64,000 nucleotides of DNA from an uncultured Ignavibacteriota bacterium (GTDB lineage: Bacteria; Bacteroidota; Ignavibacteria; Palsa-1295): contig CAIUMP010000060.1 in the NCBI GenBank assembly GCA_903900335.1, positions 1 to 64,000 of the forward strand, written 5' to 3'. Below the pieces are notes generated by a model. That model saw nothing but the letters and a program-made list of their open reading frames with translations. It searched no databases and had not been told where the DNA came from. The number at the start of each line of letters is the position of its first letter. The first letter of the stretch is position 1. The position numbers and the translations under genes were made by a program. This document shows positions 9,576 through 39,199 of this stretch, piece by piece.

Positions 9576-10564
9576 GCGCTGATACCCGCCTTTACGATGT
9601 CGTGCATGTGAATAATGCCTTCTAGTTCACCATCGGGTGAGAGAGCGAGAAGTTGCATCACTTTCGGTGGGGTATCTTCCATGAGGTGGAGTGCCTCGAT
9701 CGCCAGCGCATCGGAATTGATCTTGCGCGGGTTCTTCGTCATAACTTCTTGCGCGAGAACGGTAGCCGGATTTACTGCCGTATTCTGCTGAAAATAACGG
9801 CGCAGATCACCGTCGGTAACGACACCGACGACAGCATCACCATCAAGCACGGCGGTTGCACCATAGCGCTTCCGGGACATTTCCAACATAACCTCATTCA
9901 AGGTTGCATCCTTTGAAACACTTGGAATTGCTCCATCCTTACCCATGAGATCCCGCACAGAGAAGGTTAGCCGTTTCCCAAGCGCACCTGCCGGGTGCAA
10001 GCGGGCAAAATCCTGACTTGTGAATTCCCGCGCTTCGAGTAAGGCCATCGCGATGGCGTCACCAAGGACAAGCGATGCGGTCGTTGAAGCAGTTGGTGCG
10101 AGGTCATGAGGGCAGGCCTCCTCATCACAGTGGATAAGAAGAAAGGCACCACCACTCTCCATCGCCGATTGTGCCAGCTTTGAATTGTCCGATGCCGTAA
10201 TCGCAACGATACGGACACCAATTGTTAGCAGCGAGGGCAAGAGCATCAGCAATTCGTCGGAAGCCCCGCTCTTGCTCAGAATAATAACAACGTCTTCTCG
10301 CTGGACCATACCAACGTCACCATGAACGGCCTCCGCTGGATGAAGAAAGAACGCTGGAGTGCCCGTGGAGGCGAGCGTTGAAGCTAGCTTGTTCGCTATG
10401 TGCCCGGACTTGCCGATGCCGGTTACGATCACCCTTCCTTTGCAGGAGAGCAGCAATGCGCAGGCGTGGTTGAACGCTGCTTCATCAAGGTGTGCGAGCG
10501 TTGCGGAGATCGCTCGCTGCTCGATCTCGAACGTGCTTCTGGCACTTTGGAAAAGGTCAACCAT
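9572..10564 (-). CDS. kdsD: Arabinose-5-phosphate isomerase (KdsD/KpsF family)
   Basis: A 330-residue sugar isomerase of the KdsD/KpsF family that makes arabinose 5-phosphate from ribulose 5-phosphate, the first step to Kdo. The N-terminal SIS domain (about residues 35-170) has GRVIVTGIGKSGHIANKLA and the GTPAFFLHPAEAVHGDVGMV stretch with the conserved His that is typical of this family. Two CBS domains fill the C-terminal third (about 205-325), with GVVTDGDLRR and GIIHMHD. The gene overlaps kdsA by 8 bp upstream and lptC by 4 bp downstream. Length and domain order match the family exactly. Confidence 0.94.
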   Translation of the reverse strand: MVDLFQSARSTFEIEQRAISATLAHLDEAAFNHACALLLSCKGRVIVTGIGKSGHIANKLASTLASTGTPAFFLHPAEAVHGDVGMVQREDVVIILSKSGASDELLMLLPSLLTIGVRIVAITASDNSKLAQSAMESGGAFLLIHCDEEACPHDLAPTASTTASLVLGDAIAMALLEAREFTSQDFARLHPAGALGKRLTFSVRDLMGKDGAIPSVSKDATLNEVMLEMSRKRYGATAVLDGDAVVGVVTDGDLRRYFQQNTAVNPATVLAQEVMTKNPRKINSDALAIEALHLMEDTPPKVMQLLALSPDGELEGIIHMHDIVKAGISA

Positions 10565-19931: not shown

Positions 19932-22900
19932 CTAATTCAGATTTGACCAAGCAGAACCATCGTAACCTTCAAACTTGCCCGTGGTTGTGTTGTATCGGAT
20001 CATTCCCTGAGCTGGCGTAGATGGTCGCTGGGCAGATGTACCCACTGGGACAATGATCGCACCAGTACCGGCCACATCTAATTCTGCACGCGGTGTGCTT
20101 GTTCGGATACCAACATCCGCGCTGTGACCAAGCACCACCGCGTTACTCTGGCCAACGGTCGCACTCGCACCAATTGCTGTGGCATTGCTGATTCCACTAC
20201 TGCCGTTGCTGTTCGAGCCCAGGAAGGTGTTGTTGCTCTCCGTTGTGTTTGATGCTCCGGCCTTGTTGCCCGCGAATGTATTGCCGCCGCCCGTAGTATT
20301 ATTGTATCCCGCGTGGAATCCGCTGAAGGAGTTTGTGTCTCCAGAGGTATTGCTATAGCCTGCTTCCTTTCCGAAGAAGGCGTTCATGTCGCCGGTGTTG
20401 CTATAGCCAGCCCATGCACCGGTGAATGTATTGTTGCTGCCGGTCGTGGTCGAGTGCCCTGCTTCGAATCCCAACGCTGTGTTGTCGTTGGCAGACGTGC
20501 CATTGTAGCCTGCGTTCTTGCCGAAGTAGGAATTTTCGTAACCCGTTGTGTTCTGATTACCAGCATACACGCCTGTGAACGCGTTGCTATATCCAGTCGT
20601 CGTGAGCTGACCGGATAGCGTACCCGTAAACGTGTTGTTCGAACCGGTGGTATTCATCGTACCTACATATGCTCCTGTGAAGGTATTGTAGATGCCTGTC
20701 GTGTTCGATGAGCCAGTTGTCCTGCCGGCAAATGTGTTGCTATGTCCGGTTGTGTTATTGTACCCCGCCTCGTAGCCAGTAAAGGTATTGTCATAGCCCG
20801 TTGTATTCAGATAGCCAGACTGCGACCCCAGGAAGGTATTCTGGTTTCCAGTGGAGTTCGTGTATCCTGCCGTGTTTCCAATGAACACGTTGTCGGAGCA
20901 ATTGCCATTGTTGTACCCGGCGGCCACACCGACGAACGTATTGTAGCTACCGCCGAATGTGAAACCGGCTTGCGAACCCAGGAAGGTATTGTTGACCCCC
21001 GTGTTCGAAGTGCCTGCCGCATATCCGAGGTAGGTATTGTCATAGCCGCTCGTTGTCGATGCTCCGGCCAGTTTGCCGACGAATGTGTTGTCGGTGCAGC
21101 CGGAGCCGATCAGCGAGGTGTTGCCGGTGTTCCCGACGAGTGTATTATTGTGCAGCTCGCCGAGGGCGTTCGTAAGGTAGACGGCACTGCCAACTTTATA
21201 CGAGGCTCCTGTACTGATCGCTCCCGTCGCAGAGAAGGTCGTCCCCACGGCACCGCTTCCATCCACGTTGAAACTCGTGGACGCTTGCAGTGACGCAGAG
21301 TTATTAATGTAGGAGCCCGTAAGGGAGATTACATTCGAGCCATCGATCCCGATACCGGATCCGGCAGAGTACGCATTCGTTGCGTTGTCCCATGTGGTGC
21401 CGTTATAGACCTCCAGACGGGTCGACGTGGAATTGAACCGGATCATTCCCTGAACCGGCGACGCGGGCCGCTGGGCGGTTGTGCCATCTCCGAGAATGGA
21501 GGCTCCTGTCGTTGCAACATCGAGCGCCGCGCGTGGTGTGCTGGTGCGAATACCAACATCCGCGAGATTGCCGAGGATGACGGAATTGCTCTGCCCAACG
21601 ACGGCGTAAGCACCGATTGCTGTACCATTGACGATCCCAAAGACGCCATCGCTGTGCGAACCGATGCAGGTGTTGCTGTCGCGATTGGTGAAGGTGTTTC
21701 CGGCTAAGGAGCCAACAAACGTGTTGTTGTTTCCGGTGGTTACACTTGAACCAGCGGAGTTGCCGGTGAATGTATTGTTACTGCCGAAAGAAGTAAATCC
21801 GGCTGCAGTGCCAGTGTAGGTATTGTTGATACCCGTTTGATTGTTGTTGCCTGCTGTTACACCTATGAAGGTGTTATTGCTTCCGGAGAGATTTGCATTT
21901 CCAGCGAGTTGGCCGAAAAAGCTGTTGCTGGAGCCTGTCGAGTTTGCCAACCCTGCTCGCGAACCAACAAAGGTGTTCTGGTTACCGAGATTGTCGTTCG
22001 TCCCCGCGTTCCATCCCATGAAGGTGTTCTCGATAGCGGTCGTGTTGCTTGCTCCAGCACCTGATCCTTGGTAGGTGTTGAAGGAGCCGGTTGTATTGCC
22101 GTTGCCCGCATTGGTCCCGACAAACGTGTTAGAAGCACCACTCGTATTCTGAAGCCCCGAGCCCGAGCCCACGAAAACATTGTTCGCGCCGGTGAGATTG
22201 TTCATACCAGCGTTCTTGCCTTCGAAGGTGTTTTCGCTACCTGTCGTATTCGCGAGACCAGCGTCATTACCCGTGAAGGTGTTGTCGTTACCAGAATTAT
22301 GCTGTCCCGCTGCGCCTCCGGTGAAGGTGTTCCAATTACCGGTCGTGTTCGCAAAGCCGGCAAGCGCACCAGTGAAGGTATTTCCTCTACCCGTCGTCGT
22401 ATTGCGGCCCGTGCGCTGCCCAACGAACGTGTTGGAATCGCCGGTTGAGTTTACCGTTCCTGCTTCCATTCCGAAGAAGGTATTCGATACGCCAGTCGAG
22501 TTATTGCTGCCGGCAAATGCTCCGGCGAAGGTGTTGTAGTAGCCGGTGGTGTTGCTTTCTCCAGCGAGATTGCCAATAAACACGTTGTCGTGACCTAGGG
22601 TATTTCCCAGGCCGGACTCGAAGCCCATGAACACGTTGTTCGTACCAGTCGTGGTGTTCATTCCCGATTGTGAACCGACGAATGTATTGCCATTGGAGGT
22701 AGTCTCGCTGTGCCCGGCCTCCCACCCGATGAACGTATTGTCGAAGGATGTGGTATTCGCGAAGCCAGCTTGATAGCCAACGAACGTGTTGAAGCTCGCG
22801 GCGTCGACTGCGCCAGCACCGGAACCAACGAATACATCAAAGGAGCCACCACCAGCCGCAGCAGCAGACTTTCCTATGAAGACGTTGTCTGAGCCATTTG

Positions 22901-25900
22901 ACGCTGCCGCTCCTGCGGATTTGCCGATGATCGTGTTGCCTGTACCGCCGCCTCCAGCTAGTGTGCTGTTCGTCGTGTTGCCGACAAGTGTATTATTGCT
23001 GGTCTCGGGGCCCGCATTCGCGAGATAGATGTTCCCACCCACTTTGTATGAGGCCGCAGTATTGATCGCGCCGGTTGCCGTGAAGGTTGTGCCCACCGTG
23101 CCGCTTCCATCAACATTGAAGCTCGCGCCCGATTGTTGCGAAGCGGAGTTGTTGATAAAGCTACCCGAGAGTGAAATGACGTTCGAACCGCTAATCGCAA
23201 TTCCTGTGCCTGCGGAATAGCCGTTCGTAGCGTTTGACCATGCTGCGCCATCGTATGCTTCTAAGTGGCCGGAAGTTGTATTGTAGCGCACCATTCCCTG
23301 AACAGGCGTCGCGGGACGTTGTGCAGTCGATCCCACGGCCACAATTATCGCGCCAGACGAAGCAACATCCAACGCCGCACGTGGGGTGCTTGTTCGAATG
23401 CCGACATCCGCGTTGTGGCCGAGAACTACTGCGTTGCTCTGGCCAACGGTTGTATTTGCTCCGATCGCAGTTGAGTTCGTGTCACCCGCAGTACCATTAC
23501 TTTGAGCGCCGAGAAAAGTGTTGCTATTTTCCGTGGTATTGGATAAACCCGATCCGCTACCGGAGAACGTGTTGCCACTTCCGGTCGTGTTATTGTACCC
23601 GGCCTTCCAGCCGCTGAACGCATTGCTATCACCAGCAGTGTTGAGGAACCCCGCCTGCGCGCCAATGAAGGTATTGGAGTAACCACCATAATTCCAATAT
23701 CCAGAATTGGAACCTGTGAATGTGTTATAGCTACCGGTGTCTCGATTACCAGCAGTAAAACCCGTGAATGTATTTTCGCTTCCATGGAGATTGCTTACTC
23801 CGGACTGCGTGCCATAATACGAATTGTCGGATCCTGTAGTGTTGTTCTGGCCCGAGTTGAAGCCCGTGAATGTGTTGTATTGTCCCGTCGAGTTGCCGGA
23901 ACCAGCTAGCGCACCCGTAAACGTGTTGTTGCTTCCAGTGGTGTTGGACTCGCCAGCCATTTTTCCGGTAAAGACATTGTTTGAGCCTGTCGTGAGGCCG
24001 AACCCAGCTTCAAATCCGGTCACGGTGTTATCGGAGCCGGTCTGATTGCCATAGCCAGCTTGTGTTCCGAGGAATGTATTATTGCTCGCAGTAGTGTTGT
24101 TATATCCCGCAGCCATTCCCAGGAAGACGTTGTAGTTGGTGTTAATATTATTATAGCCAGCCTGGTATCCGACGAACGTGCTGTATCCGCCAGTGTTGGA
24201 GAATCCCGCGCCCGAACCGATGATGGTGTTATAGACCCCAAGAGTACTGGTACCTGCCTGATACCCAAGAAGAGTGTTATCGTAACCGCTCATGCAGGAA
24301 GCCCCTGACTGTTTACCGACGAAGGTGTTTCTCGGTCCAGTAAGTATCGAATTTGTTGTGTTACCAACAAGGGTATTGTTACTAGTCTCTGTCCCTGCAT
24401 TCGAGAGATAAGCATTCCCACCAATCTTGTAAGATGCCGCAGTATTGATCGGTCCCGTTGCCGTGAAGGTTGTGCCCACTGTGCCGCTTCCATCAACATT
24501 GAAGCTCGCGCCCGATTGTTGCGACGCAGAGTTGTTGATATAACTTCCTGAGAGGGATGGCAAGTCAGCCGCAACAAGTGCGCGGAATCCGGGAGCAGCC
24601 GTTGCGCCCGAACCCGGTCCGGCAAATACCAGATTTGCGGACGTTGTCGTAGCACCGGTGCCACCGTTTGCGACGGGGAGCGTGCCGGTAACTTCTGCAG
24701 TTAGGCTGACATTCGAAGCTGTAAGAGCGGATGTGCCATTGCCATGCACGACACCGGTGAGAGTTGCTGCACCTGTGCCGCCGCTGCTAACAGGCAAGGC
24801 GACGGTGAAGGCCGCGTCATTTGCGATGAGGCTTCCACCGCTTGTGACATGGAAAGTATTACCTCCATTTTGCAGTGATTGGGCCGTGAGGTTTCCACCG
24901 ACGGACATATTGTTGTCGGTGCGCAGAGCTGTGCCGGATCGATATAAATTCACATCACTCGCGGCACCGATAAAGAGCTTGCCAGTATTCGTACCGATCA
25001 CGAGGTTACCCCCAACAGTGCCGTTCCCATCAATGTTGAAGTTCGCGCTTGATTGCTGCGAGCTGGAATTGTTGATGTAATTCCCGGACAGTACAGGTGT
25101 AAGATCAGCTGCGACAAGTGCACGGAATGCGGGTGCTGCTGATGCACCCGATGTTGGGCCTGCGAAGACGACATTCGCCGAAGCAGTCGTCGCGCCCGTG
25201 CCCCCATTCGCGACGGCAACTGTGCCAGTAACATTCGCTGCGGTACCGGTCGTGTTTTGATTCAGTGTTGGCACATCTGCAGCTTGAATGGCCGAACTTG
25301 CCCAAGCAGCGCCTGTGCTGCGTAAGTAATTGCCAGCGGAGCCAGTAGCGGCGACACCCGTTCCGCCATTCGCAACCGGAAGTGTGTTCGTCACTTCGGA
25401 GTTGAGCGAGACCTGGGACGACGATAGATTAGTACCGGATCCGCTGGAATGCAAGATTCCTGATGGCAATTGAGTGTTGATGCTACCACCAACGGTCAGT
25501 TGATTGCCGACCGAGCCAGTGCCAGAAACGTTAAAGCTTGCTGTCTGCGCACTCGCACTTTGGTTCTTGATGTATCCGCTTCCGAGATCCGGTAGATCAT
25601 TCGATGTGATCGCACTCCATGTGGGAGCCGCACTTCCTGCGCCAGTACCGGTCTGTGCTAAGTACATCTTTGTCGCACTTGTATTGCCAGCAAGTCGCGT
25701 TCCGGTGCCGGCCGATCCACCGTAAGGAATGTCACCGAGTGCTGTCAGCGGACTAAGTGCGTCATATCCTGCGCTCTTCGTAGCCGCACCCGTGCCGCCG
25801 TTTGAGATCGCAACCACGCCTGTTACATTCGAGGCAGTGCCTGTCGTACTTTGGTTGAGCGTGGGGACATCGGCGGCTTGCAGTGCAGAGCTGACCCACG

Positions 25901-28900
25901 CTGCACCATTGCTGCGAAGGTAATTTCCACTCGCGCCAGTCGTAGTAACGCCTGTGCCGCCGTTTCCGATCGGAAGAGTGCCATTGACTTCGGAGCCAAG
26001 AGCAACACTCCCAGCAGTCATCGCACTGCTACCATTGCCATGCAACACTCCTGTTAGAGTTGTCGCACCAGTACCGCCATGTGTGACGGCGACGGTGCCA
26101 GTAACGTTCGCGGCATTGCCCGTGGTGTTGGCAGTGTTATCTGGAATATCCGCTGAAGCGAGTGAACCAGACGTCCACGCGCCCGCACCATCCCCACGCA
26201 GAAATTGTGTTGCAGTGCTGGAGGTAAGTCCCGTGCCACCGTGAGCAACGTTTACAGTTGGTAACTGCGAGTTCGTCGCGCTGCCGGATATTTGTGAAAA
26301 GGAGTAATCGCCGCTTGTTGCCACAACGTCTCCAATGCGACTGAATACACTGGTTACTACTCCACCTCCAGTGATCGGCTGCCAGGATGCAGTCGAGCCA
26401 TTCGTCGTGAGCACCTTGCCAGAATTTCCACTCTCGGATGGAAGGACGCCATCTATGCTTGCGACACTAAGTGCGTTGCCCGAACCGCTGCTAACAACAA
26501 TTCCTGAACTCAGGCCAGCATATAGGCCACCAGTGCCAAGGTAGAGTGAATGCCAACGATGCGTTGCATCTCCGAGGGCCGTGACGTCATCGGTGCCAGG
26601 CGTTGAAGGACCTGCGTCTCCTGTCGCACCGGTTGCGCCATTCGTACCATTGGCACCTGCTGCTCCAGTTGGACCCGCCGCACCGTTCGTACCGTTAGCT
26701 CCGGTCGCTCCCGTCGCTCCTGTTGGGCCAGCGACACCCTGCGAACCTTGTGGGCCAGTCGCACCAGCTACTCCGTTTGTACCATTCGTACCCGCGACTC
26801 CTGTTGCTCCTGTCGGCCCAGCAGCACCCTGCGAACCTTGTGGGCCAGTCGCACCCGTCACTCCGTTAGTACCATTCGTGCCGGCAGCTCCTGTTGCTCC
26901 TGTCGGCCCAGCAGCACCTTGTGAACCCTGTAGGCCCGTTGCACCTGTTGCTCCGTTTGTACCATTCGTACCCGCGGCTCCTGTTGCTCCGGTCGGGCCA
27001 GCGACACCCTGTGAACCCTGTGGGCCAGTCGCACCCGTCACTCCGTTAGTACCATTTGAACCAGCCGCTCCGGTTGGACCAGCGACACCCTGCGAACCTT
27101 GTGGGCCTGTTGCACCCGTCGCTCCGTTAGTACCATTTGTACCAGCTGCTCCGGTTGGACCGGCGACACCTTGCGAACCCTGTGGGCCTGTTGGCCCGAC
27201 TGCGCCCTGCGCCCCAGGTGCACCGTCGGTTCCGTTCGAACCATTCGTACCCGCGGCTCCTGTTGCTCCGGTCGGACCAGCGGCACCTTGCGAACCCTGT
27301 GGCCCGGTCGCACCTGTTGCGCCGTTTGTCCCATTCGTGCCTGCCGCTCCCGTTGCTCCTGTCGGGCCAGCGACACCTTGCGAACCCTGTGGGCCGGTGG
27401 CACCGGTTACCCCGTTCGTACCATTCGTACCCGCCGCTCCCGTCGCTCCTGTCGGGCCGGCGATACCTTGCGAACCCTGTGGGCCGGTGGCACCGGTTGC
27501 CCCGTTCGTACCGTTCGTACCCGCGGCTCCTGTTGCTCCAGTCGGACCAGCTGCACCTGTTGGGCCGGTGGGTCCGGAAGCCCCGTTTGCCCAAGCCAAA
27601 TTGCCACTTCCATCCGTTTCAAGAAATTGATTGGCGTGTCCGGCCTGGGATGGAAGAATGTTATTCGCTGCAGCAGCGGAAGTAGTTGCGCCGGTACCAC
27701 CATGGGTGATGTCAACAGTTGGCAATTGCGCATTCGCAGCAGATCCAGAGAGTTGTGAAAAGGAATAGTCTCCGCTTGTCGCGACGACCGCACCAGTTCG
27801 TCCATACACACTTGAGACGGAACCACCTCCACCGCTAACGGGCTGCCATGAAGCAGTCGATCCGTTCGTTTGCAAAACTTTCCCCGATTGCCCCGTTTGA
27901 TCGGGAAGAAGTGCCGTCAGCGCTCCTGTTGCGGTCGTTGAACCTGTTCCACCATTGGCGATCGCTACTGAACTAAGCCGTGAGGAGTTAATGGTTGAAG
28001 CACTCGCTGCGTTGATGGCATCGATCAAGTTATTTCCCTGCGCTGCATTCGTTGGTAGCGTTTGGGTCGCGGACCAGTTATTCGGCTGCGTTGGATCGAG
28101 CGCGATGGTTCTGTCCGCAGTTAGGTCACCGCCTCCGCTCAACCCGGTGCCAGCGCTGATGCTGCGAGCATCCAAAAGGAGATTGCCGTTCGTTGCCGGG
28201 AGCACTACAGTTGCATCGCTGGACATTGTTCCGGATGGCGTTTCTAATACAACTTGGTGTCCCCCGCTTGTTATCCCCTGCGCAAGCTTGATCACGCCTG
28301 GGTTGCCGGAAACATTATTGCCGATGAATGTCTGTCCGTTAGCGGTATTGAAAAATGTTGACGAAGCAACGGTAAGTGTGCCTGTGATGGATGTGTTTGC
28401 CTGTACCTGCTCGCCCTTTGCGTTGCGAGGCAATGCGGTATTACTGTTTCGCAGAAGGATCGTATTCGATGCTGTGTCCAGAACGGCTGCGATGCCGTCT
28501 CCCGTCTGGATCGAAATATCACGAGCGTTTCCCGAGAGTCGTGCGCCGTTGATCGAGATCGAACGCAGATAATCTGCAGCGATCTTCGGAGCGGTGATCG
28601 ACTTATCCGGGACATTCAGTGCATACGGCGAAGCATTGAGCGCCGCGAACGGCTTGAGTTCTGCCGCATCACCAATCTGCACGCTTACCCAGAGTGGTCT
28701 GTCCAGCAGACCGGATTCCGGCAACGGATGCTCACCTGACCCCAACCCGATATTGAATATTCCACCAATGACCCACACAGTGTAGCTGTCGTGCCACAAC
28801 TCTTGCGTACCGGCTTCGTCTGCATACAGCCGCATCGTGATCGAATACTCGCCGTCCTTTGGCAGAGTGCCGTCTGTACTGCTATGAAGCACGCCTTGGT

Positions 28901-29087
28901 AGGTAATGATCTTCGGCATCGGCTTTGCGACTGAAGCGGTCGCTGGCGTAGTGCCCTCCGATGGCATTACGAGGCGCGGCGTGGCGATGCTTAGCGCATC
29001 GACGCTCTGCGCCGAACAGAGGCTCAGCGGGAGCAGAGAGGCGAGCAATAGTAATCCAAGGCAAATTGGGAGCTTTGTGCGTTTCAT
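19932..29087 (-). CDS. Giant surface protein: tail-fibre-like, collagen-like and 17-residue repeat regions
   Basis: A 3051-residue secreted protein starting at 29087, where [20 protein letters not shown] gives a signal peptide (cleavage near CSAQ); the frame extends to 29216 without a signal. Residues about 50-200 resemble the base of tail-fibre-like surface proteins ([39 protein letters not shown]). Then come about ten GGTG modules ([20 protein letters not shown]), split by a Gly-X-Y collagen-like tract at about residues 500-830. Three blocks of Asn/Thr/Gly-rich 17-residue repeats ([15 protein letters not shown] type) each end in [12 protein letters not shown] and a RYNT...YDGxxW module. The protein ends in [10 protein letters not shown] with no recognisable T9SS domain or S74 chaperone. 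An adhesin or fibre is inferred. A TPR-LuxR regulator lies directly upstream. Confidence 0.85.
20195..21155 (-). repeat. 17-residue repeat block C of the giant protein
   Basis: Within residues about 2644-2964, the pattern NTFxGxxAGxxNTTGxx recurs about every 51 bp (17 residues), for example [34 protein letters not shown] and [17 protein letters not shown]. It closes with [15 protein letters not shown] and the [19 protein letters not shown] cap. A beta-solenoid with an Asn ladder is inferred from the regular spacing. Confidence 0.85.
21650..23005 (-). repeat. 17-residue repeat block B of the giant protein
   Basis: Residues about 2027-2479 hold the longest of the three blocks, roughly 25 units such as [34 protein letters not shown] and [17 protein letters not shown]. 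It is followed by the same [19 protein letters not shown] cap as the other blocks. Confidence 0.85.
23495..24390 (-). repeat. 17-residue repeat block A of the giant protein
   Basis: Residues about 1566-1864 carry units such as [34 protein letters not shown] and [17 protein letters not shown], capped by [19 protein letters not shown]. The DNA flanking blocks A and B is nearly identical (about 23041-23165 and 24435-24540), showing recent duplication or gene conversion. Confidence 0.85.
26600..27582 (-). repeat. Collagen-like Gly-X-Y tract with 90-bp units
   Basis: An unbroken Gly-X-Y run of about 110 triplets (residues about 500-830), built largely from a 30-residue unit with [16 protein letters not shown] followed by [12 protein letters not shown]. 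Neighbouring units differ by a few codons. Such tracts form trimeric collagen-like stalks in bacterial surface proteins. Confidence 0.92.
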
Positions 29088-29381
29088 ATTTAAGTTGCGA
29101 TTAATCAGACGGAGCAGAAAAACGAAATCACGTGCACCACCACTCTCCCCATTCCATTGAGAGCGATGTGAGAAAGAGCCTGGTAGCAACCCAGACGACA
29201 TCTCGGCGGCGATCATACATCCCGATGCTGGCGGCCCGCCATTCCAGGCAGACGCGCATTCATCTGAGGCAAAGCTACGGGCGCATTCCGTATTCCCGTT
29301 ACTGATTTAGTACGTAGTGGTGAGAATGTAGATCGTGAGGGCGACGGAGGATACAGTCCTGGTGAGGCGAGCTCGAATCAC
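29088..29381. other. Intergenic region upstream of the giant surface-protein gene
   Basis: 294 bp between the regulator stop and the giant gene start. A TAGCTTTG on the minus strand (29277-29270) fits the Bacteroidota -7 form TAnnTTTG, about 183 bp before the start, but no matching TTG box was seen at -33. No terminator hairpin is obvious. Read-through from the regulator is possible. Confidence 0.3.
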
Positions 29382-31055
29382 CTACATCCTGGCCAGGTGT
29401 AGCATAAGATCGTGTTCACGACTCGTAAGCTTCATCTTCCTTCTTATTCGGAGACGGTGGCTTTCTATCGTGCGCTCAGAGAGGCACAGAAGACGGGCCA
29501 TCTCTTCCGATTTGAGATTCATTCGCAACAGAGAACAAATGCGGAGCTCTTGGGAGGAGAGTTCTGGGTACAGCTCTATCAGTCGTTTTGTAAACTCCGG
29601 GTGGGCTGCTTTGAACTGCGTATCAAACTTGGTCCAATCCACGGACTTGCAGGGCAGGTTCTTGATGCGATCTCTCAGCTCTTTCCCAACCGGTTCTGAG
29701 ACCGAGATCTTTCGCGCCATTCGCAATAGATCTTCTCGAAGATCCGAAAGCAACTCTGTTTGAGAAATGAGCTGAAGCGTCGTGTTGGAGAGATCACGTT
29801 CCATCTGTGCGACTCGTAGCTGCTCCAACTCTCTTGCGTGCCTATCGCGCTCCATTTGAAGCAATAGATAGGTTTGTGTGACGCTGGATTGGATAGATGG
29901 AGCGCTAACGAGTGAGGTACTGATGCGCTCCGATTCTTCCTTCGCGAGTAGTGCATCTTCGAACTCCTTACGAGCACGATGAAGGCGCGATTTGATCTTG
30001 TAATAGTCCAACAACACCATCTGCGGCGCTTCTGGAAAGAAGACATTTCTGAAGTCCAGAAGCGCCCGCTCTGCTTCGTCGTATCGCTCCATGCCGATGA
30101 GTGCGATTGCGCGGTGAATGTGCGCTTGCATTACCTCGTTTCTTCGAGGACTATGAAGTGCAGGCTCCAACTCGTTCAAAGCTTCCGCGTAACGGCCAAG
30201 CTCCGTCAGGGTGTAGGCAATGTATCGCCGTGGTACGTCTGTTCGAAGCTCGAACCCTGCAGCAATGGTCGTTGAGTATGATTGACGAAAATTCTCCAGT
30301 GCTTCCTCAAGTTTGCCGAGCCGAAGATTGACCAAGCCTGTTACCTTCAACACCTCCATCTCAACGTACGGACTTGGAGGTGTCCATTCTGCAGCGGCCG
30401 GTGATTCTGCTTCGGGCTTTTCCATGACCCTCGCGGCAAGTTGAAGCGCATCATCGAGTCGCCCGGTGCTGTAAAGGATGGAAGCAAGATTCGTAAGCGC
30501 ATTCCTGGCTGCCGAGATATTGCCTGCAGCTTCAAACGCAGAGAATGATGCACGCCCGGCCTCTGCCGCTCCGATGACATCACCAGCCATGTATCGTGTG
30601 CTACAGAGCCCTTCGTACGCGCATCCTTGAGCAGTCAGGTCTGCGTGCTCCTTTGCGATCACAAGTGCGCGTTCCAGTATTCCAAGGATAGTGGGGAAAT
30701 CACCGCTTTGGTGAAACTCGATAAAAGCCAGCCCCACCATGGCCCGAGCCTCTAATCCACCATACCCCAATGCATGAGTCTGATGAAGGGCGGTTTGGTA
30801 CGCTTCTTTCGCGGTGGTATAGGAGATGTCGCTCATCGCCTCGGCCTCCAGCAGACGGAAGCTCCACTCGGCGTACTCGTGTTTCACCGCTCGTGCAAGT
30901 CGAATCCCCTCAGATACGAGCGTCTCCGCTACGGAGTGTTGTGTCCACAAGGCCTCTTCGGCCTGCTTCAATAGCTGGTCGATCTCGTCGTGAGAAGGTT
31001 TGACAGTTGGTTTCTTCACCGCGCAGAAGTATGTAGAAACGTGCGTCCGAAGCAC
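29382..31055 (-). CDS. TPR-repeat transcriptional regulator with LuxR-type DNA-binding domain
   Basis: A 557-residue cytoplasmic regulator. Residues about 20-400 are alpha-helical repeats of TPR type (for example YGGLEARAMVGLAFIEF, LVNLRLGKLEEALENFRQSY and YAEALNELEPAL). A Leu/Glu-rich stretch (about 410-470) looks like a coiled coil. The C-terminal helix-turn-helix begins at SSQELRICSLLRMNLKSEEM and ends with LSERTIESHRLRIRRKM, the LuxR/GerE form. There is no receiver, PAS or membrane segment, so the signal must enter through the TPR part. The annotated ATG at 31055 may be early; a GTG at 31019 (KKPTVKP follows) is an alternative. It is the gene directly upstream of, and co-oriented with, the giant surface-protein gene, which is a natural target. 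Confidence 0.88.
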   Translation of the reverse strand: MLRTHVSTYFCAVKKPTVKPSHDEIDQLLKQAEEALWTQHSVAETLVSEGIRLARAVKHEYAEWSFRLLEAEAMSDISYTTAKEAYQTALHQTHALGYGGLEARAMVGLAFIEFHQSGDFPTILGILERALVIAKEHADLTAQGCAYEGLCSTRYMAGDVIGAAEAGRASFSAFEAAGNISAARNALTNLASILYSTGRLDDALQLAARVMEKPEAESPAAAEWTPPSPYVEMEVLKVTGLVNLRLGKLEEALENFRQSYSTTIAAGFELRTDVPRRYIAYTLTELGRYAEALNELEPALHSPRRNEVMQAHIHRAIALIGMERYDEAERALLDFRNVFFPEAPQMVLLDYYKIKSRLHRARKEFEDALLAKEESERISTSLVSAPSIQSSVTQTYLLLQMERDRHARELEQLRVAQMERDLSNTTLQLISQTELLSDLREDLLRMARKISVSEPVGKELRDRIKNLPCKSVDWTKFDTQFKAAHPEFTKRLIELYPELSSQELRICSLLRMNLKSEEMARLLCLSERTIESHRLRIRRKMKLTSREHDLMLHLARM

Positions 31056-31221
31056 AAGTCACTGACTAACGAGTGCAACCCGCAGGAGTGTGCCCGATCA
31101 TGGCTCTGGACTCTAAGAGCTCCGCAGTTATGGAATCTACAAACTTAAGCGTCAATATCGCCGCACCGTTACTGAAACAGTACGTAATTCAGAAAGGGAG
31201 GCAAAAAATAGCTCCTGAACG

Positions 31222-31256
31222 AAAAAATCCCCGAAGGCATGAAGCACTCGGGGATT
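31222..31256 (-). terminator. Rho-independent terminator after the tRNA cluster
   Basis: On the minus strand AATCCCCGA pairs with TCGGGGATT around a 13-nt loop and is followed by a T-run, 18 bp beyond the 3' end of tRNA-Thr(GGT). This is a standard intrinsic terminator for the three-tRNA transcript. Confidence 0.85.
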
Positions 31257-31755: not shown

Positions 31756-34125
31756 TTAATTCGGGATCGTCAAATGCGTGCCAGCGGCAATTGTACCGCC
31801 TCGAAGGTGATTTGCCTTCTTGAGATCGTTGACCGCAACATCGTACTTTCCGGCGATCGAATAGAGCGTGTCGCCGCGCTTCACGCGGTAGGTCAGCGGA
31901 TGGTGCTTGCCGCGTCCGTTACTGATAACGCGATCTCCCTTTGCTGGGGTCGCGTTGTCCGCATAGACCTTCAGCTTCATGCCAGCCTGCAATTCTGGGG
32001 CGGAAAGGTCGTTGTTCCATTCGGAAAGCTGGTCGGAAGTGACGCCATAGCTGTGCGCGATATGGGTCATGGTTTCACCGGGAAGCACGGTATGATACTT
32101 TGGTGCGCGGCTTTCCTTCGAGGCAATTTCCTCCGTCTTTGCATCAGCACCGCTGACATCCATTGACGTGAACACGCGGAGGCTTTGCCCCTGCTTCACA
32201 CCATGTTTGGCAGCCTTGTTCCACGTTTTGATCTCGTGGAGGCTTACTCCAAACGCATCGGCGATCTTGCCCATCGTATCACCACGACGTACGCGATAGT
32301 TGATCCAACGGTTCTGCACCTTCCCAGACTTCTTCGATGCGCGGACGTTCTTGATCGGCTCGGCGGCAGGTGCACGCTCCTGATAGATCTTAAGCGTTTG
32401 GCCAGTCTTCAGATGTGCGCGACCACGAATGTTATTCCACTGGCGGACGTCGCTGACCTCCACCCCAAAGTTGCTTGCGATCGAGAATAGCGTCTCGCCG
32501 TGACGCACTTTGTGCTTCACCAGGTGAGCTTTGGATTCCGCACTATTTCCATTGGACTTCGCGGAGGCTGCAACAACCGGTGCCGACTTTGCTGGCGCGC
32601 CTGTCTGCGGAGCCATCACGGTCATCGGTACGCGAATGCGTTCGCCACGCTTGACGCGGCCACCTTCGGTCATGTCGTTGTATTCCGCAAGCTGACCCGG
32701 CGTGATCCCGTATTCGTGCGCGATCTTCTTCATCGTTTCACCGCGAGCGACCGTATGGATCAGCCAAGGACGACGCTCCGTCTCTGGGATGGCCGCGAGG
32801 CGATCGTAGAAATTCGATGAGGAGCCAGCAGGAAGTCGGAGGCAGTAACCATCCGGACTGCAAAGCTCCATCGGTGGTGTGGAAGGCTGCAAGAGTTGTG
32901 GATTCAGCTCCTTCACTTCTAACGAGCTAACACCGGCGGCCTTTGCGAGCGCATTCAGGTCGATCGCTTCACGAACGTGCACGGTGTCAAACTTAAGCGG
33001 CGCATCATAAACGATGTCGTTAAATCCATAGCGCGCTGGATCCATCGCGATGAGCGTGGCGGCGATATAAAGCGGCACGTAGTTCTGCGTCTCCTTCGGC
33101 AAGAACGGACGAATCTCCCAGAAATTGTTGGAGCCCGCTTCAGCCATTGCCTCGCGCACGCGGTTGATGCCTGAGTTGTAGGCGGCGAGGGCTAAATGCC
33201 AATCGCCGAGCGCAGTGTGGAGATCGCGCAAATGCCGTGCGGCGGCGCGTGTCGCGGCCAGCGGATCGCGGCGGAGATCGAACCACCAATTGTTCTCGAG
33301 TCCATAGCGTGAACCGGTAGCGTCAATGAACTGCCAAAGGCCGACCGCTTTGGCCCAGCTAACGGCCGTCGGGCTAAGTCCGCTTTCGATCATGGCGAGA
33401 TGCACCATCTCCTCGGGCACGCCCTCTTCCTTCATGACCTTCTTCATCATCGGGAAATACTTGCCCGTACGGCCAAGCCACTTCGCCATGAACGGACGTC
33501 CGTTACCCTGTGTAAAGTAGGAGATCGTCTGCTCCGTCGCCGTATTCATCGTCAACGGAATCTGGGTATTCGACAAGTCTATGCGCGGAAGGGGCACATT
33601 CTTGACCGACATCTTCGCGAGCTCCTGATTGAACTTCTCGCGAAACGCAAAGATGGAGGCATTCGATGGGAGCGAGTCAATGCGGGCTACGTATTTCTCG
33701 TAGTCCTTCATGACAGTCTTTGAAAGATCCTGGAAATCCTTGTTGGAATCCACACCTGGATAGGTCATCAGGTGGTTAAGGATGTCGATCGAGCCTTCAA
33801 AATGCTTGACGACTTCGACCTTCGCGTTCTTCTGTTGAGCGACCAATGCGCGGAGCCACTCCTGACGGGCGGCATCGACTCTCTCGTTGACGAGATGGGG
33901 GTCGATGCTGCCCGACTTCACCTGCTCATCGAGCACGGAGAACGGATCGGCTTTTACAGCGCTCTGCGTCGGCTCAGTTTGCTGCTGTTCGGTCTTGGTG
34001 ATCTTGCTTGCGCCGCCGCATCCGGCAAGCGTAAGGCCGAAAGCGATCATCAGGCCAGCGAAAGCAGTCAGCGCCCCCCTGGTGCCGAAGCTGGCTGTTC
34101 GTTGTGTTGTTCTTGTTTGCGTCAT
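31756..34125 (-). CDS. mltD: Membrane-bound lytic transglycosylase D with five LysM domains
   Basis: A 789-residue lipoprotein that cleaves peptidoglycan glycan strands. The signal ends GLTLAG with Cys36 as lipid anchor. The SLT/GEWL domain (about residues 220-370) has the catalytic Glu in AMIESGLSP (about residue 245), [16 protein letters not shown] and [10 protein letters not shown], the MltD-type set. Five LysM domains follow at about 454, 535, 606, 676 and 740, each beginning with a form of [14 protein letters not shown]. coli MltD has two LysM domains, so five is long. It is transcribed away from the large T9SS cargo gene and toward the tRNA cluster. Confidence 0.95.
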
Positions 34126-34696: not shown

Positions 34697-37600
34697 GTGA
34701 AACATCCTCGATCTCTTCACGCCAAATTTGTGCTCATCCTTCTCGCCGGTCTCCTGGTTTTGCAAGATGGCATTCGCGCTCAAACGCAAGTGCCCTACCA
34801 CTTCCCACTCCAGCCAAGTCATGTGGCGGACGGCGCGGGTTCTTACACAGCAAATCTCACGATGGGAAGCCTCAGCGCAAATGGGCTGGGCCAGTGGACG
34901 ATTAACCCTGATAATCATAGCACTGGCACACACCACGGAAGGCTTGAATGGTATTTGCTCGGCAATAATATCGCTCAGGCGGGTACAGGTGTCCCGCCGG
35001 GTATAGTCGATGCCGGAGACCTGACACCATCCCCGGCTAGCGATGCAAACATGCAGTTTGGATGGATGACTTCAGTGTCGAATCTTAATGGCGTGACAGC
35101 CTTCATCTGTCCATCTTCCGACTGGTCAACGTTTCGAGTTTGGATCGCACGAGATGGTTCGGGCGATGGATATTACTTCCCTCCTGATGCACCGCTCCAA
35201 TCGAACTTTATGGATTTTGATCCAAGCAATAGTGCAACATTTAAAGTGGGAAGGTCTCCAATTTCGGAGCTGATTCCCATTAATGTACTCCCTTATGTGA
35301 ACTCCAACTGCCCCGCACCGCCCACCCACCTCTTCACCCCCGTTCTTATCGACGGAGTCTATGAGGACGATAGTAGGGATGTATTCAATGCGGCAATCGA
35401 CAAGAACTTTCTTTATTTCACCTGGGTCAGCGATTTCAGCTATTATCAACCGAACGTTAATTTTCCTGGATCATGCGATCATTGGGGGCCTTACAGACCT
35501 AACGATCCCACTTACAGGGAGCAATTCTTCGTAGTCGCAATTGACCTTAGAACCGGACACGTAGCTTCTGCAAATTATCCATTTCATTTTTCAGCCGGGG
35601 CACCGACGAGCGGACGCCGTCCGTCAATAGCCTGCGACGTTAGAAATGCACCTGATAATCCTGAATTCTATCTCGCTTGGATTGACCAGATCGGAGTAGG
35701 CGGAGGTAGCAGTGTCCAATGTGCACATTGTACCGACAATGGATCGGGACCAACGATAGCGCAACTAGTAACATTGCAAAACAAGATGTTTATACCCCCG
35801 CACTCCAGTGGTTCATGGCTTTACTACTTTCCAGAACGTATCCATCTATTAGTCGCAAGCGACCCTAATCGTGGAGACCATAATCCGGACATTGGAGTGT
35901 ACATCATCACGCCCCGAGGCACAGGCATCGGCGGTTCGACGCAACCTACTGCTAGTTATTTGAATAATGGTCGAGGAAGTCTCATTTTGCATAGGTTCGA
36001 GAATGGAACGATGGCACCAAAGACAACAGCGGATTATGTCGATGGGTATCTCTTGGCTGGTCTCGGCTCCCCGCTCGACCCTAATACATTGAGGGCATGG
36101 CCATTTTTTGTGATCAACAGCCATATCACGGCGTTTGCAAATCCATACGACGGCTGGTACGATCTAGGAACCGCCGTCTTCGATGAGTTTCATTGTCTCT
36201 ATCAACTTGATCGGTCCGGTTACACGCCTGACATAACAGACCACACTTCTCCTCTCATGATCGTGCGTGGAATGGATAATGGGGATAATCCTGTGGTTAC
36301 TGGTGACCACGCTGGAATAACAGACACACGTCGTTGCGTGAATATGCAGACAACGGACAATGGCACGTCATGGATATTCGTCGATGAACCAATGTCGAAC
36401 ATTGCCTACACTGCCGCCGCAAATCAAATGGGAATTCACGTTCATTGGAGGGCACAACCCGCGCTTGGCGCAGCCATTCATTACTACTCACGTGACACGC
36501 GGCAGTTCGATGAGCCAATTGAAGAGAATACAATTGCGAGCTACCGTTGCGAGCTTGCGGACGGAACTTCTCATGGCGGATCATTCGGTGCGGAAGTTAA
36601 CCAAAGTAGAACCCTCTCCCTCTGGAGCGATCCGAGCGTATTTACTTCTGTAGAGCTCCTTCCTGTGAGCAACAGTGCTATTTTGCAGTCCGTCCACACT
36701 CAAAGCACGATGGGTGTAACGCTCGGTTTGAGTGAGTCCCAAGAGAACCCAATTTACGTCCATGCTCCTTCACTTGTGCTATTCCCGGACTTCCACATCC
36801 AACTCACGGGTACAGATGACGCAATTTTAATTGGCCAAGCGACGAAGCTAAATTATTGGGGCGTTGTGAACGAGGTCGCCAACCGATGGGGTCCTTTTGA
36901 AGGTAGTCTTGGCACTTTCACCCTTCAGGGTGCCGCCGGTACGTCACTTGCCCCGGGTTATCCATTTGGTATGCCTCAATGGCCTCCGCTTGTCACTCTT
37001 GGTATTGGTACTGATTTCAGAATTGTGAACTCCATGTCGTTCTCTGCTTATGCGACGACTTTCAATTTCTCGTCTCAAGCCACGAGTTATGCTCCTGCGA
37101 AGGTTACCTTCCTTGGATGTAATGTCGATATTGAAGGCTCGTATTTCTGGACAGGGGACTATGCACTTAACGGCATAGAGATACCGTTGGAGGATAAGCT
37201 ACTTTCCGACCCTCAGCACCCTTTTTCTCCTCATCCTTTCACATTATACGATAACTTCATCATTGGTGCTTTGCCATCGAAGATAGCTCTTGATGGCAAT
37301 AACAGCACTAACCACCTGGGAGATGTCACTATCACGGGCGGGGGATTCTATTCCAGCCACATCTTTGCGGAGGCGAATGATAATCAAATCACGATTTCGG
37401 GTTCGTGGTTCTTTGACATCAAGGACTACGCGATTTCACTCTTTCGCGACCTCACTTCATCACCTCCATCTTCCTACTCGAACTCCTCTATTACGGGATG
37501 TGAATTCCACAATTTCCTCGACGCCTCCGATAAGAAGTCTGCTATCTACTTAGATGGATTCACGCTGAGTCATCCTAATATGGTGATAAGCGGTAATACT

Positions 37601-39199
37601 TTCGATGCCAGCGGGACAGTAAAGAACATGGCTGCCATCAACATTATTAACTCAGTGGCTGAGGTTCTTGCGAACACAATTGACGGAGGGACACCTTCTT
37701 CTTATGACAGAGGAATTGTATTCCATTCTGATCAGCAAAGGACTAGTTTAATTTGCTCGAATTCGATTGCGAATGTAGGGAATTCCACTCTGACCGGTGC
37801 GGGAATTCTCTCCGACAATTTTCAAGGGTTTTGCGAGAGTAATAGCGTCACTTCAAGTGATCGAGGCCGTGTGAGCGGCAGTGGTGACTTCTCATATGAA
37901 TTCTTCGATAACTATTCTGGCAATCGATCGACCGGGGTTGAGCAAACATCCGGTGCCTCTACAATTGATATGACTCAATGGACGCAGGCCGGAACCGTCT
38001 GGCAAGCATTCACGACCGTTTCTGGGAATGGGACAAGTGATGGGGCAGCGCAAATTCGGCTTGTTCCAGGTTCGGAATGGTATAGAAACAAAGACAACGT
38101 CTTTGTGTCATCTGGGCTTCTCGTTGATTGTCCCACCTGCTCATCTCACTACTTTATAGGGGGTATCGGCGGCGTATTTTGGGGCTCGATTTCACTCACT
38201 TTGCATCCCTCCATTCAAGGAACCGGACCTGGCTTTGCTTCGAATATCGAGTATATTCTATCTACTCAAAACACCTCTTCATACACGAACACGTATACCA
38301 ATTTGACATGTAGTGGCGCGCCCTCGATGTCCAATCGGAAAAAGGATGAAGATCACACTATGTCTGTTCTCATGGATAGCATCTCCTGTTATACTCTACA
38401 GAAGACAGGCCATGATCTCGGGGTTGGCGATAAATACCAGGCGTCGTATGACACGCTCATGCATTTCATTGACAGCTGTGCTAACGAAAGTAATGCGTGG
38501 GCTGCTTTTGGAAGCATGTCGGCCGCTAACTCAGATCGCAACCAAGATCCAAATCGATATCGGGAGTTCCGTGATTGGCTCAAGAAGGTGCTCTACTATA
38601 ATCTGACCTCGAAATACTATTGCTCGGACGTAGATGCTATGCTCAGTACTTTTGATTTCTTCGATTCTTCTCGAGGTTATGATGCCAATGGTCGTTGTGC
38701 GGTTCTTAAATACCTCCTTCAAAGTGGAAAGTGCCCCGACTACGCGAGCCATGATAGCCTCTTCTACCTGCATCAGCGACAAGGCCAACATCAAGGTTGG
38801 ATAGACACGACCGCACGTTTAGGCAAAGACACGAATATTTACAAGCTCGACACGACCTTACCCTCTCTCGAACAACTCGGTCTTACGACTCTCTATGGTC
38901 CTCCGGGGTCTGTAACTCCTCCGATAGAAGCACCAAATCTCCTGAGTGGCGTTCGCATCACTGACAATCCTTTCGAGAAGACGACAGATGTCATCTATGG
39001 ACTATCGAAGGATGCGGCTGTTGAAATCGAAGTCTTCGATGTGCTGGGCCATGTCATCTCAGGGGATGATCGAGTGAAAGTGCAATCGACGGGTGTTCAT
39101 CGTGTGCCGTTGGATTTGCACAGCTCTCCAAGTGGGGATTATTACGTGCGTTTGAGTGCCAACGGGCGTTCAACTACTCTGAAGATGCAGAAGAAATAA
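34697..39199 (+). CDS. Large T9SS-exported surface protein with beta-helix-like region
   Basis: A 1500-residue secreted protein, GTG start at 34697, with a signal peptide (KFVLILLAGLLVLQDG, cleavage near RAQTQ). The first half is beta-rich without a family I can name. Residues about 850-1110 look like a right-handed parallel beta-helix, with short repeated turns such as ITGGGFYSSHIFAEANDNQI, ITGCEFHNF, VISGNTFDASG and LANTIDGGTPSS. The C-terminal about 80 residues are a T9SS type A sorting domain (ITDNPFEKTTDVIYGL, then VEIEVFDVLGHVI, then SGDYYVRLSANGRSTTLKM). It is followed by a strong terminator. Base composition looks more AT-rich than its neighbours. Function is unknown; pectate-lyase-like folds often bind or cut polysaccharides, but no catalytic motif was recognised. 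Confidence 0.85.
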   Translation: MKHPRSLHAKFVLILLAGLLVLQDGIRAQTQVPYHFPLQPSHVADGAGSYTANLTMGSLSANGLGQWTINPDNHSTGTHHGRLEWYLLGNNIAQAGTGVPPGIVDAGDLTPSPASDANMQFGWMTSVSNLNGVTAFICPSSDWSTFRVWIARDGSGDGYYFPPDAPLQSNFMDFDPSNSATFKVGRSPISELIPINVLPYVNSNCPAPPTHLFTPVLIDGVYEDDSRDVFNAAIDKNFLYFTWVSDFSYYQPNVNFPGSCDHWGPYRPNDPTYREQFFVVAIDLRTGHVASANYPFHFSAGAPTSGRRPSIACDVRNAPDNPEFYLAWIDQIGVGGGSSVQCAHCTDNGSGPTIAQLVTLQNKMFIPPHSSGSWLYYFPERIHLLVASDPNRGDHNPDIGVYIITPRGTGIGGSTQPTASYLNNGRGSLILHRFENGTMAPKTTADYVDGYLLAGLGSPLDPNTLRAWPFFVINSHITAFANPYDGWYDLGTAVFDEFHCLYQLDRSGYTPDITDHTSPLMIVRGMDNGDNPVVTGDHAGITDTRRCVNMQTTDNGTSWIFVDEPMSNIAYTAAANQMGIHVHWRAQPALGAAIHYYSRDTRQFDEPIEENTIASYRCELADGTSHGGSFGAEVNQSRTLSLWSDPSVFTSVELLPVSNSAILQSVHTQSTMGVTLGLSESQENPIYVHAPSLVLFPDFHIQLTGTDDAILIGQATKLNYWGVVNEVANRWGPFEGSLGTFTLQGAAGTSLAPGYPFGMPQWPPLVTLGIGTDFRIVNSMSFSAYATTFNFSSQATSYAPAKVTFLGCNVDIEGSYFWTGDYALNGIEIPLEDKLLSDPQHPFSPHPFTLYDNFIIGALPSKIALDGNNSTNHLGDVTITGGGFYSSHIFAEANDNQITISGSWFFDIKDYAISLFRDLTSSPPSSYSNSSITGCEFHNFLDASDKKSAIYLDGFTLSHPNMVISGNTFDASGTVKNMAAINIINSVAEVLANTIDGGTPSSYDRGIVFHSDQQRTSLICSNSIANVGNSTLTGAGILSDNFQGFCESNSVTSSDRGRVSGSGDFSYEFFDNYSGNRSTGVEQTSGASTIDMTQWTQAGTVWQAFTTVSGNGTSDGAAQIRLVPGSEWYRNKDNVFVSSGLLVDCPTCSSHYFIGGIGGVFWGSISLTLHPSIQGTGPGFASNIEYILSTQNTSSYTNTYTNLTCSGAPSMSNRKKDEDHTMSVLMDSISCYTLQKTGHDLGVGDKYQASYDTLMHFIDSCANESNAWAAFGSMSAANSDRNQDPNRYREFRDWLKKVLYYNLTSKYYCSDVDAMLSTFDFFDSSRGYDANGRCAVLKYLLQSGKCPDYASHDSLFYLHQRQGQHQGWIDTTARLGKDTNIYKLDTTLPSLEQLGLTTLYGPPGSVTPPIEAPNLLSGVRITDNPFEKTTDVIYGLSKDAAVEIEVFDVLGHVISGDDRVKVQSTGVHRVPLDLHSSPSGDYYVRLSANGRSTTLKMQKK

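Follow-up and report, generated by a model that had tools for sequence, protein, structure and literature searches.

The window analysed here, a stretch of 64,000 nucleotides from an uncultured Ignavibacteriota bacterium, carries a gene for a regulator with TPR repeats and a LuxR-type domain and, directly downstream on the same strand, a giant surface gene. The same short DNA signal precedes both genes and also a distant gene for a secreted protein, so the regulator probably switches on all three. From the sequence, we consider it probable that this one-component regulator, acting through a private operator, controls its own expression and drives both the giant gene and a single distant target. 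A preliminary description had suggested dedicated control of the surface gene from gene order; the box shared by the two promoters, one copy of which lies in the 294-bp gap between the genes and was absent from that description, supports the suggestion well, beyond neighbourhood, and turns a guess into a testable circuit with named bases. The features concerned are the following.

29382 to 31055, minus strand: gene for the TPR-LuxR (GerE) one-component regulator, 557 amino acids (ORF, Pfam, AlphaFold model)
19932 to 29087, minus strand: giant surface gene (ORF and repeats read from the sequence; Pfam Collagen 154.5 bits)
31166 to 31187, minus strand: putative operator box, regulator promoter (0 mismatches; PWM score 38.2, training site)
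31140 to 31147, minus strand: -7 element TAAGTTTG, regulator promoter (exact TAnnTTTG, 18 nt after the box)
29296 to 29317, minus strand: putative operator box, giant-gene promoter (0 mismatches; PWM score 30.3, training site)
29270 to 29277, minus strand: -7 element TAGCTTTG, giant-gene promoter (exact TAnnTTTG, 18 nt after the box)
31222 to 31256, minus strand: terminator-like hairpin (9-bp perfect stem, 13-nt loop, T run), read from the sequence

The regulator frame opens with GTG, and an alternative GTG is possible at 31019. Pfam matches to TPR_12 and GerE score 47.1 and 31.6 bits, above their respective cut-offs of 30.1 and 23.5, and no receiver domain is among the 19 families found at E≤0.1; the protein thus belongs with the GerE/LuxR-type one-component regulators with TPR and not with the NarL/FixJ type. 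The highest mean Kyte-Doolittle hydropathy over 19 residues is 0.98, and we therefore take the protein to be soluble, without a membrane segment. In the AlphaFold model (pLDDT 85.8, pTM 0.65), TPR helices form a solenoid over residues 22 to 384, followed by a single long helix (393 to 448) and a C-terminal HTH region (455 to 556). Pfam, hydropathy and model agree with the preliminary description of a stand-alone regulator that has neither a receiver nor a membrane segment. Its position beside the giant gene, on the same strand, is likewise confirmed, with regulator and gap together filling the interval 29088 to 31055 to which that description referred. In a structure search, the solenoid resembles in shape those of a wide range of TPR proteins, Rap, NprR, and MalT among them, which fits the sensing of a ligand or partner but names no ligand; with high Z scores to so many TPR proteins, the matches carry little information on a ligand.

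The giant gene is composed of a signal peptide, an N-terminal domain of the ISYQG/ITYQG type, collagen repeats, long runs of NTFxGxxAG-type repeats, and a short C-terminal stretch. Its likely start, judged by reading from the signal peptide, is the ATG at 29087; an in-frame ATG also occurs at 29216. The sole longer frame noticed between regulator and giant gene starts at this second position, in phase with the giant gene, and a peptide-pheromone reading was rejected. The N-terminal domain (28338 to 29087) is a shared module: it has 22 matches in the same genome and is matched in 31 of 61 genomes, and the open frames that carry it differ widely in length. Elsewhere in the window, a gene for a 1500-aa secreted protein (34697 to 39199), whose match to a T9SS sorting tail is below the cut-off, is divergent from a LysM-SLT lytic transglycosylase gene (31756 to 34125).

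Upstream of the regulator are three tRNA genes, and the terminator-like hairpin sits between them and the regulator promoter; our hairpin scan admitted loops of 3 to 8 nt only and therefore did not list it. Given the tRNA genes and the T-run hairpin, the regulator probably needs its own promoter. A search of the leaders for RNA elements with Rfam at gathering thresholds returned the three tRNAs only, and a scan for Sigma-70 promoters found 0, compared to 1.7 in shuffled sequences.

When the upstream regions were compared side by side, TACGTACT-N3-TCAGTAACGG was found to precede both the regulator and the giant gene, at 31166 to 31186 and 29296 to 29316, respectively. In the window the box occurs twice at ≤3 mismatches (0.02 expected), upstream of exactly these two genes. 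Its two heptamers, followed in each case by ACGG, are TTACGTA (31187 to 31181) and TTCAGTA (31176 to 31170) at the regulator and CTACGTA (29317 to 29311) and ATCAGTA (29306 to 29300) at the giant gene. Across the 4.0-Mb genome, the box is found at ≤3 mismatches in five places, compared to one with the reversed control. The next best copy has one mismatch and is on C55, a contig of 16 kb that carries no TPR-LuxR gene; it precedes the gene for a protein of 1139 aa in which DUF4962 and an Ig domain are combined with a T9SS sorting tail. A match at C44:129795 falls within a frame and fits the -7 element poorly; it was taken as chance.

All three boxes are followed exactly 18 nt downstream by TAnnTTTG. 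The core TACT-N5-AGTAACGG-N18-TAnnTTTG has three zero-mismatch matches in the whole genome and three further ones, each with 3 mismatches, of which one sits 4 kb upstream of another TPR-LuxR gene; the reversed control gives nine at ≤3 mismatches. The three 18-nt spacers look unrelated, and the sharing of the box is therefore not a recent duplication. According to PMC9723704, the main sigma factor of flavobacteria uses TAnnTTTG as its -7 element, at -12 to -5. That placing puts the heptamers near -52/-46 and -41/-35; counted from the same element, the box extends to about -31. Transcription is predicted from the sequence to start near 31135 for the regulator and near 29265 for the giant gene. 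A TTTG at -33 is absent in all ten aligned promoters. The window boxes gave the first impression of a palindrome, TACT-N5-AGTA; this reading was dropped because relatives show direct repeats, many of them perfect (CTCAGTA, TGTCGTA, TAGAGTA, and TGTAGTA, each present twice in its box).

In relatives, the design is a pair of nnnnGTA heptamers at a spacing of 11 or 12 bp and, about 18 nt further on, TAnnTTTG. Among the 13 family genomes searched, a box was found at 34 of 47 LuxR-type ORFs, compared to 0 in a control that applies to the upstream rule only. To be counted, a box had to be on the same strand and either ≤8.5 kb upstream (33 cases) or ≤300 bp after the stop (4 cases), with three ORFs falling in both groups. 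Without the seven ORFs of the training loci the count is 27 of 40; for ORFs of at least 400 aa it is 32 of 44, the remaining three being short (102 to 138 aa). The 47 ORFs represent 46 of 47 LuxR-type places (L162 gave no ORF) and one extra short ORF in L148. In L148 (G008:C86), a TPR-LuxR gene and an ORF for a LuxR-type HTH of 138 aa are separated by two divergent, back-to-back boxes at 9640 and 9683. The 13 ORFs without a box include the closest paralogue of the regulator, on contig C57 of its own genome, two that start at contig edges (L111 and L119), and six that seem to be orthologues of one another (L042, L152, L154, L155, L157, and L159). Behind two of the four after-stop boxes (L116 and L123) no long frame follows closely on that strand.

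A PWM built from ten training sites, which include the window and C55 trio, gave 33 matches of at least 19 bits in 53 stretches (the window and 52 loci, 750 kb), compared to 0 in reversed and 0 in Markov sequences. A stricter repeat model, with two GTA 11 or 12 bp apart, three of the four preceding bases equal, and the -7 element at the right distance, gave 27 matches, compared to 0 reversed; none of the trio passes it. Of 38 boxes, 36 are separated from the -7 element by 18 nt, in a scan that allowed 16 to 20 nt and penalised any value other than 18. With the pattern at ≤2 mismatches, the 13 family genomes gave 17 matches, compared to 2 reversed. Twelve are within about 5.4 kb of LuxR-type genes, and another closely follows a regulator-like frame located at the edge of a contig; the remaining four are C55, G008:C140, G010:C191, and G012:C22. 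The last of these and G045:C40 were taken as chance. In genomes of the same genus, box-plus-element matches lie 1.2 to 3.8 kb upstream of three TPR-LuxR genes, the C-terminal parts of whose products are among the most like that of the window regulator. Boxes of the same or a near-same variant also occur with no regulator on the stretch fetched (G000 C55, G008 C140, G010 C191 with a weaker -7 element, and five times in G374), as would be expected of distant targets.

The two halves of a box agree in 3.08 of 4 variable bases over 38 boxes, compared to 1.58 when shuffled (0/10000). Over 27 regulator-box pairs, half-site identity tracks the identity of the recognition helix (Mantel r 0.53, 0/5000 permutations), related sequences being non-independent points in this test; the spacer follows the helix weakly (r 0.13, 224/5000). 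One of seven boxes from G374 and one of three from G356 were used, and loci L127 (21.8 bits), L150 (17.0 bits), and L025 (under threshold) were skipped. The helix TERAVEFHRLN, for example, pairs with CTAGTA/CTCGTA-type halves, and the helix RNIENHRYRIRKK pairs with a doubled TAGAGTA. In the window trio the repeat is less regular: the halves agree in 2, 1, and 2 of 4 bases (regulator, giant gene, and C55), fewer than in most relatives. On these patterns, the balance tips modestly toward a lineage with an expanded family of TPR-LuxR activators whose operators would form a readable code that insulates them from one another: a pair of nnnnGTA heptamers spaced by one turn, a fixed 18 nt to an ordinary -7 element, and four variable bases set by the recognition helix. 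Each member would drive its own gene together with a particular set of surface or secreted proteins (giant fibers, beta-propeller lipoproteins, and T9SS cargo), and, if so, surface make-up would be switched module by module. The paired variants of helix and half-site are natural data for a recognition code of GerE domains.

The preliminary description had also raised the possibility that regulator and giant gene are kept together, which holds in part. The type of pair recurs, without an orthologous copy in the genomes searched. In the 53 stretches there are four ORFs with the N-terminal domain of the giant, all directly abutting a TPR-LuxR gene on the same strand with gaps of 101 to 167 bp by longest frames (294 bp in the window when counted from the likely start); the pair type is thus present in three loci besides the window. 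In L118 (G009, another genus), the order box-regulator-box-giant is repeated, with both boxes sharing a different variant, and the giant has a C-terminal stretch of the same kind as that in the window. In G001, L112 has the order box-giant-regulator and L117 has regulator and giant adjoining, with no box between them at the thresholds used. The domain has 146 matches across the 13 family genomes, compared to the four beside TPR-LuxR genes, and nearly all genes with it are therefore unlinked. No orthologue of the regulator was found at E≤1e-60 in 60 relatives, its own-genome paralogue aside, or at E≤1e-70 among the best three candidates per genome in 390 other genomes of the class, and no conserved orthologous pair was found in either set. 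The paralogue on C57 is 46% identical over query residues 10 to 557, with a recognition helix identical through SERTIESHRLRIRRKM.

A lipoprotein or other secreted protein is a commoner partner of TPR-LuxR genes than a giant gene. In ten loci from the same genome, G003, G001, and G008 (L033, L034, L035, L039, L041, L108, L109, L110, L114, and L116), such a gene precedes the TPR-LuxR gene on the same strand. Its product, of about 330 to 390 aa and predicted to be secreted or a lipoprotein, often ends in NWK(R) and is encoded behind a box promoter; it looks beta-propeller-like, with weak PD40/WD40-like matches in two of three scanned.

We propose that the regulator is cytoplasmic and that its coiled coil would make a dimer, the two GerE-type HTH domains of which would sit head to tail on one DNA face, on heptamers one helical turn apart. 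Contacts at about -52 to -46 and -41 to -35 would place them beside RNA polymerase, and the regulator would help the main sigma factor to start from TAnnTTTG where the usual TTTG at -33 is missing, at its own gene, the giant fiber gene, and the gene for the T9SS-secreted protein on C55. The TPR solenoid may gate this activity by binding a ligand or partner, and may in this way sense a cell state, as the preliminary description proposed. The gene anatomy, the boxes with their rarity and fixed spacing, and the linkage and covariation in relatives are observed. Several observations weigh against the proposal: the irregular halves of the window trio, which the stricter model misses; the 13 of 47 ORFs that have no box; the adjoining pair of L117 with none between its genes; the two after-stop boxes with no long frame close behind; the boxes of G313 and G356 on stretches that carry no TPR-LuxR gene; and the failure to find an orthologue of the regulator in 390 other class genomes. 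Binding of the regulator to the boxes, activation rather than repression, and a TPR ligand are what we infer; an HTH pair next to the polymerase at promoters without the -33 TTTG suggests activation.

Repression of itself and the giant gene by the regulator, the box overlapping the -33 region and excluding polymerase until a signal arrives, seems to us unlikely. Negative autoregulation is common, and a box reaching about -31 is a position open to a repressor too, but the ten aligned promoters lack the -33 TTTG, and the near-constant 18 nt (36 of 38 boxes) fits an activator that must touch polymerase, whereas a repressor would tolerate variation. Somewhat less doubtful, though still improbable, is that the three boxes are bound chiefly by the C57 paralogue, or that one regulon is common to both proteins. 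With a recognition helix identical through SERTIESHRLRIRRKM, the paralogue could be the actual binder or an additional one; it is 46% identical overall to the window regulator and has no box of its own. Against this, two of the three boxes are at the window regulator and its neighbor, and boxes in relatives usually mark the regulator linked to them.

The box might instead belong to another global regulator or an alternative sigma factor, with both genes mere members of its regulon. This would suit the box on C55, the contig of which has no TPR-LuxR gene, and the boxes in G313 and G356 without one nearby, and ownership of the box by a TPR-LuxR protein is itself deduced from sequence. Nevertheless, the family boxes are clustered around TPR-LuxR genes (34 of 47 ORFs, compared to 0 in the control), their variable bases change with the recognition helix of the regulator to which a box is linked, and the -7 element is the ordinary TAnnTTTG; we regard both versions as quite improbable. 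A chance neighborhood, in which the regulator controls unrelated genes and the giant promoter is constitutive, would agree with the lack of an orthologous pair in the 390 other class genomes, but it is hardly credible beside the same rare box at both promoters and a pair type that recurs in three more loci.

A TPR-type region with a LuxR-type HTH recalls MalT and the LAL regulators, and MalT domain III (1hz4) is among the structural matches (Z 23.8, rmsd 4.1, 327 aligned). The MalT TPR Pfam model gives 20 bits, below its cut-off of 45, the solenoid starts at residue 22, and no STAND/AAA ATPase domain is among the Pfam families listed, which leaves the regulator outside that group. The solenoid is also similar in shape to those of the peptide sensors Rap, NprR, and AimR, and its fold agrees with the RRNPP type (Z 27 to Rap/NprR; NprR 5dbk, Z 27.1, rmsd 5.4, 345 aligned), with unrelated TPR proteins scoring as high. 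The HTH is absent in Rap and N-terminal in NprR and AimR, whereas it is C-terminal in the window regulator, and no peptide gene was seen beside it by reading. SARPs bind DNA through an OmpR-type domain; the DNA-binding domain here is GerE, and neither an OmpR-type DNA-binding domain nor BTAD is among the 19 Pfam families found in the regulator at E≤0.1. The likeness to SARPs is one of geometry only, the window boxes having a period of 11, an imperfect repeat (1 to 2 of 4 variable bases plus GTA), and a position near -35. SARPs of Streptomyces, e.g., PimR, use heptameric direct repeats with 4-nt spacers and an 11-bp period, and their monomers are thought to bind one DNA face (PMC5930380).

The SusR-like regulators of Bacteroides (NCBIfam NF058541) resemble the proposed system in being Bacteroidota regulators with a C-terminal HTH and direct-repeat sites on one side of the DNA. 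Ravcheev et al. 2013 (PMC3878776) predict for them direct-repeat sites that the proteins contact from one side of the DNA, several of them beside genes acting outside the cell; the sites of SusR are spaced by 67 or 77 bp, and its ligand, maltose, is bound in the periplasm. The window regulator, in contrast, has no membrane segment, and the boxes found here have a period of 11 or 12, the spacing to which our scans were confined; its score to NF058541 is 35.7 bits, compared to a cut-off of 480. The HTCS of Bacteroides share direct-repeat sites, with a spacing of about 21 bp, and motif groups that generally follow protein clusters (PMC3878776). Direct-repeat sites of the SusR-like and HTCS kind and 11-bp heptamer repeats of the SARP kind are thus already published (PMC3878776, PMC5930380); in the literature searched, we found no family of TPR-GerE proteins that combines this geometry with coupling to the -7 element and to surface genes. 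The circuit extends to paralogous regulators and operators in poorly studied Bacteroidota, here through metagenome-assembled relatives that are named 'Ignavibacteriae bacterium' or 'Bacteroidota bacterium' and probably represent the Kapabacteria lineage, and the boxes are a way to list the targets of regulators with no assigned function and to learn when cells make giant surface fibers.

The design extends outside the family: across the class, the box at ≤1 mismatch gave 24 matches in 10 of 391 genomes, compared to 4 reversed; matches in G058 and G360 are inside coding frames and were taken as chance. In family f7, two TTGAGTA boxes lie upstream of another TPR-LuxR gene in G110, and G374 has seven boxes, six of one TGTAGTA-type variant, one of which lies 575 bp upstream of a TPR-LuxR gene. 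The six near-identical TGTAGTA-N4-TGTAGTA promoters and the one variant are scattered over contigs C3, C18, C31, C89, C121, and C149 (L179 to L185), a ready-made regulon to study. Boxes are also present in G313 and G356, with no TPR-LuxR gene on the stretches fetched. The three AGTAGTA boxes of G356 (contigs C9, C444, and C574; L186 to L188) are almost identical, spacer included, and may be part of a repeated element.
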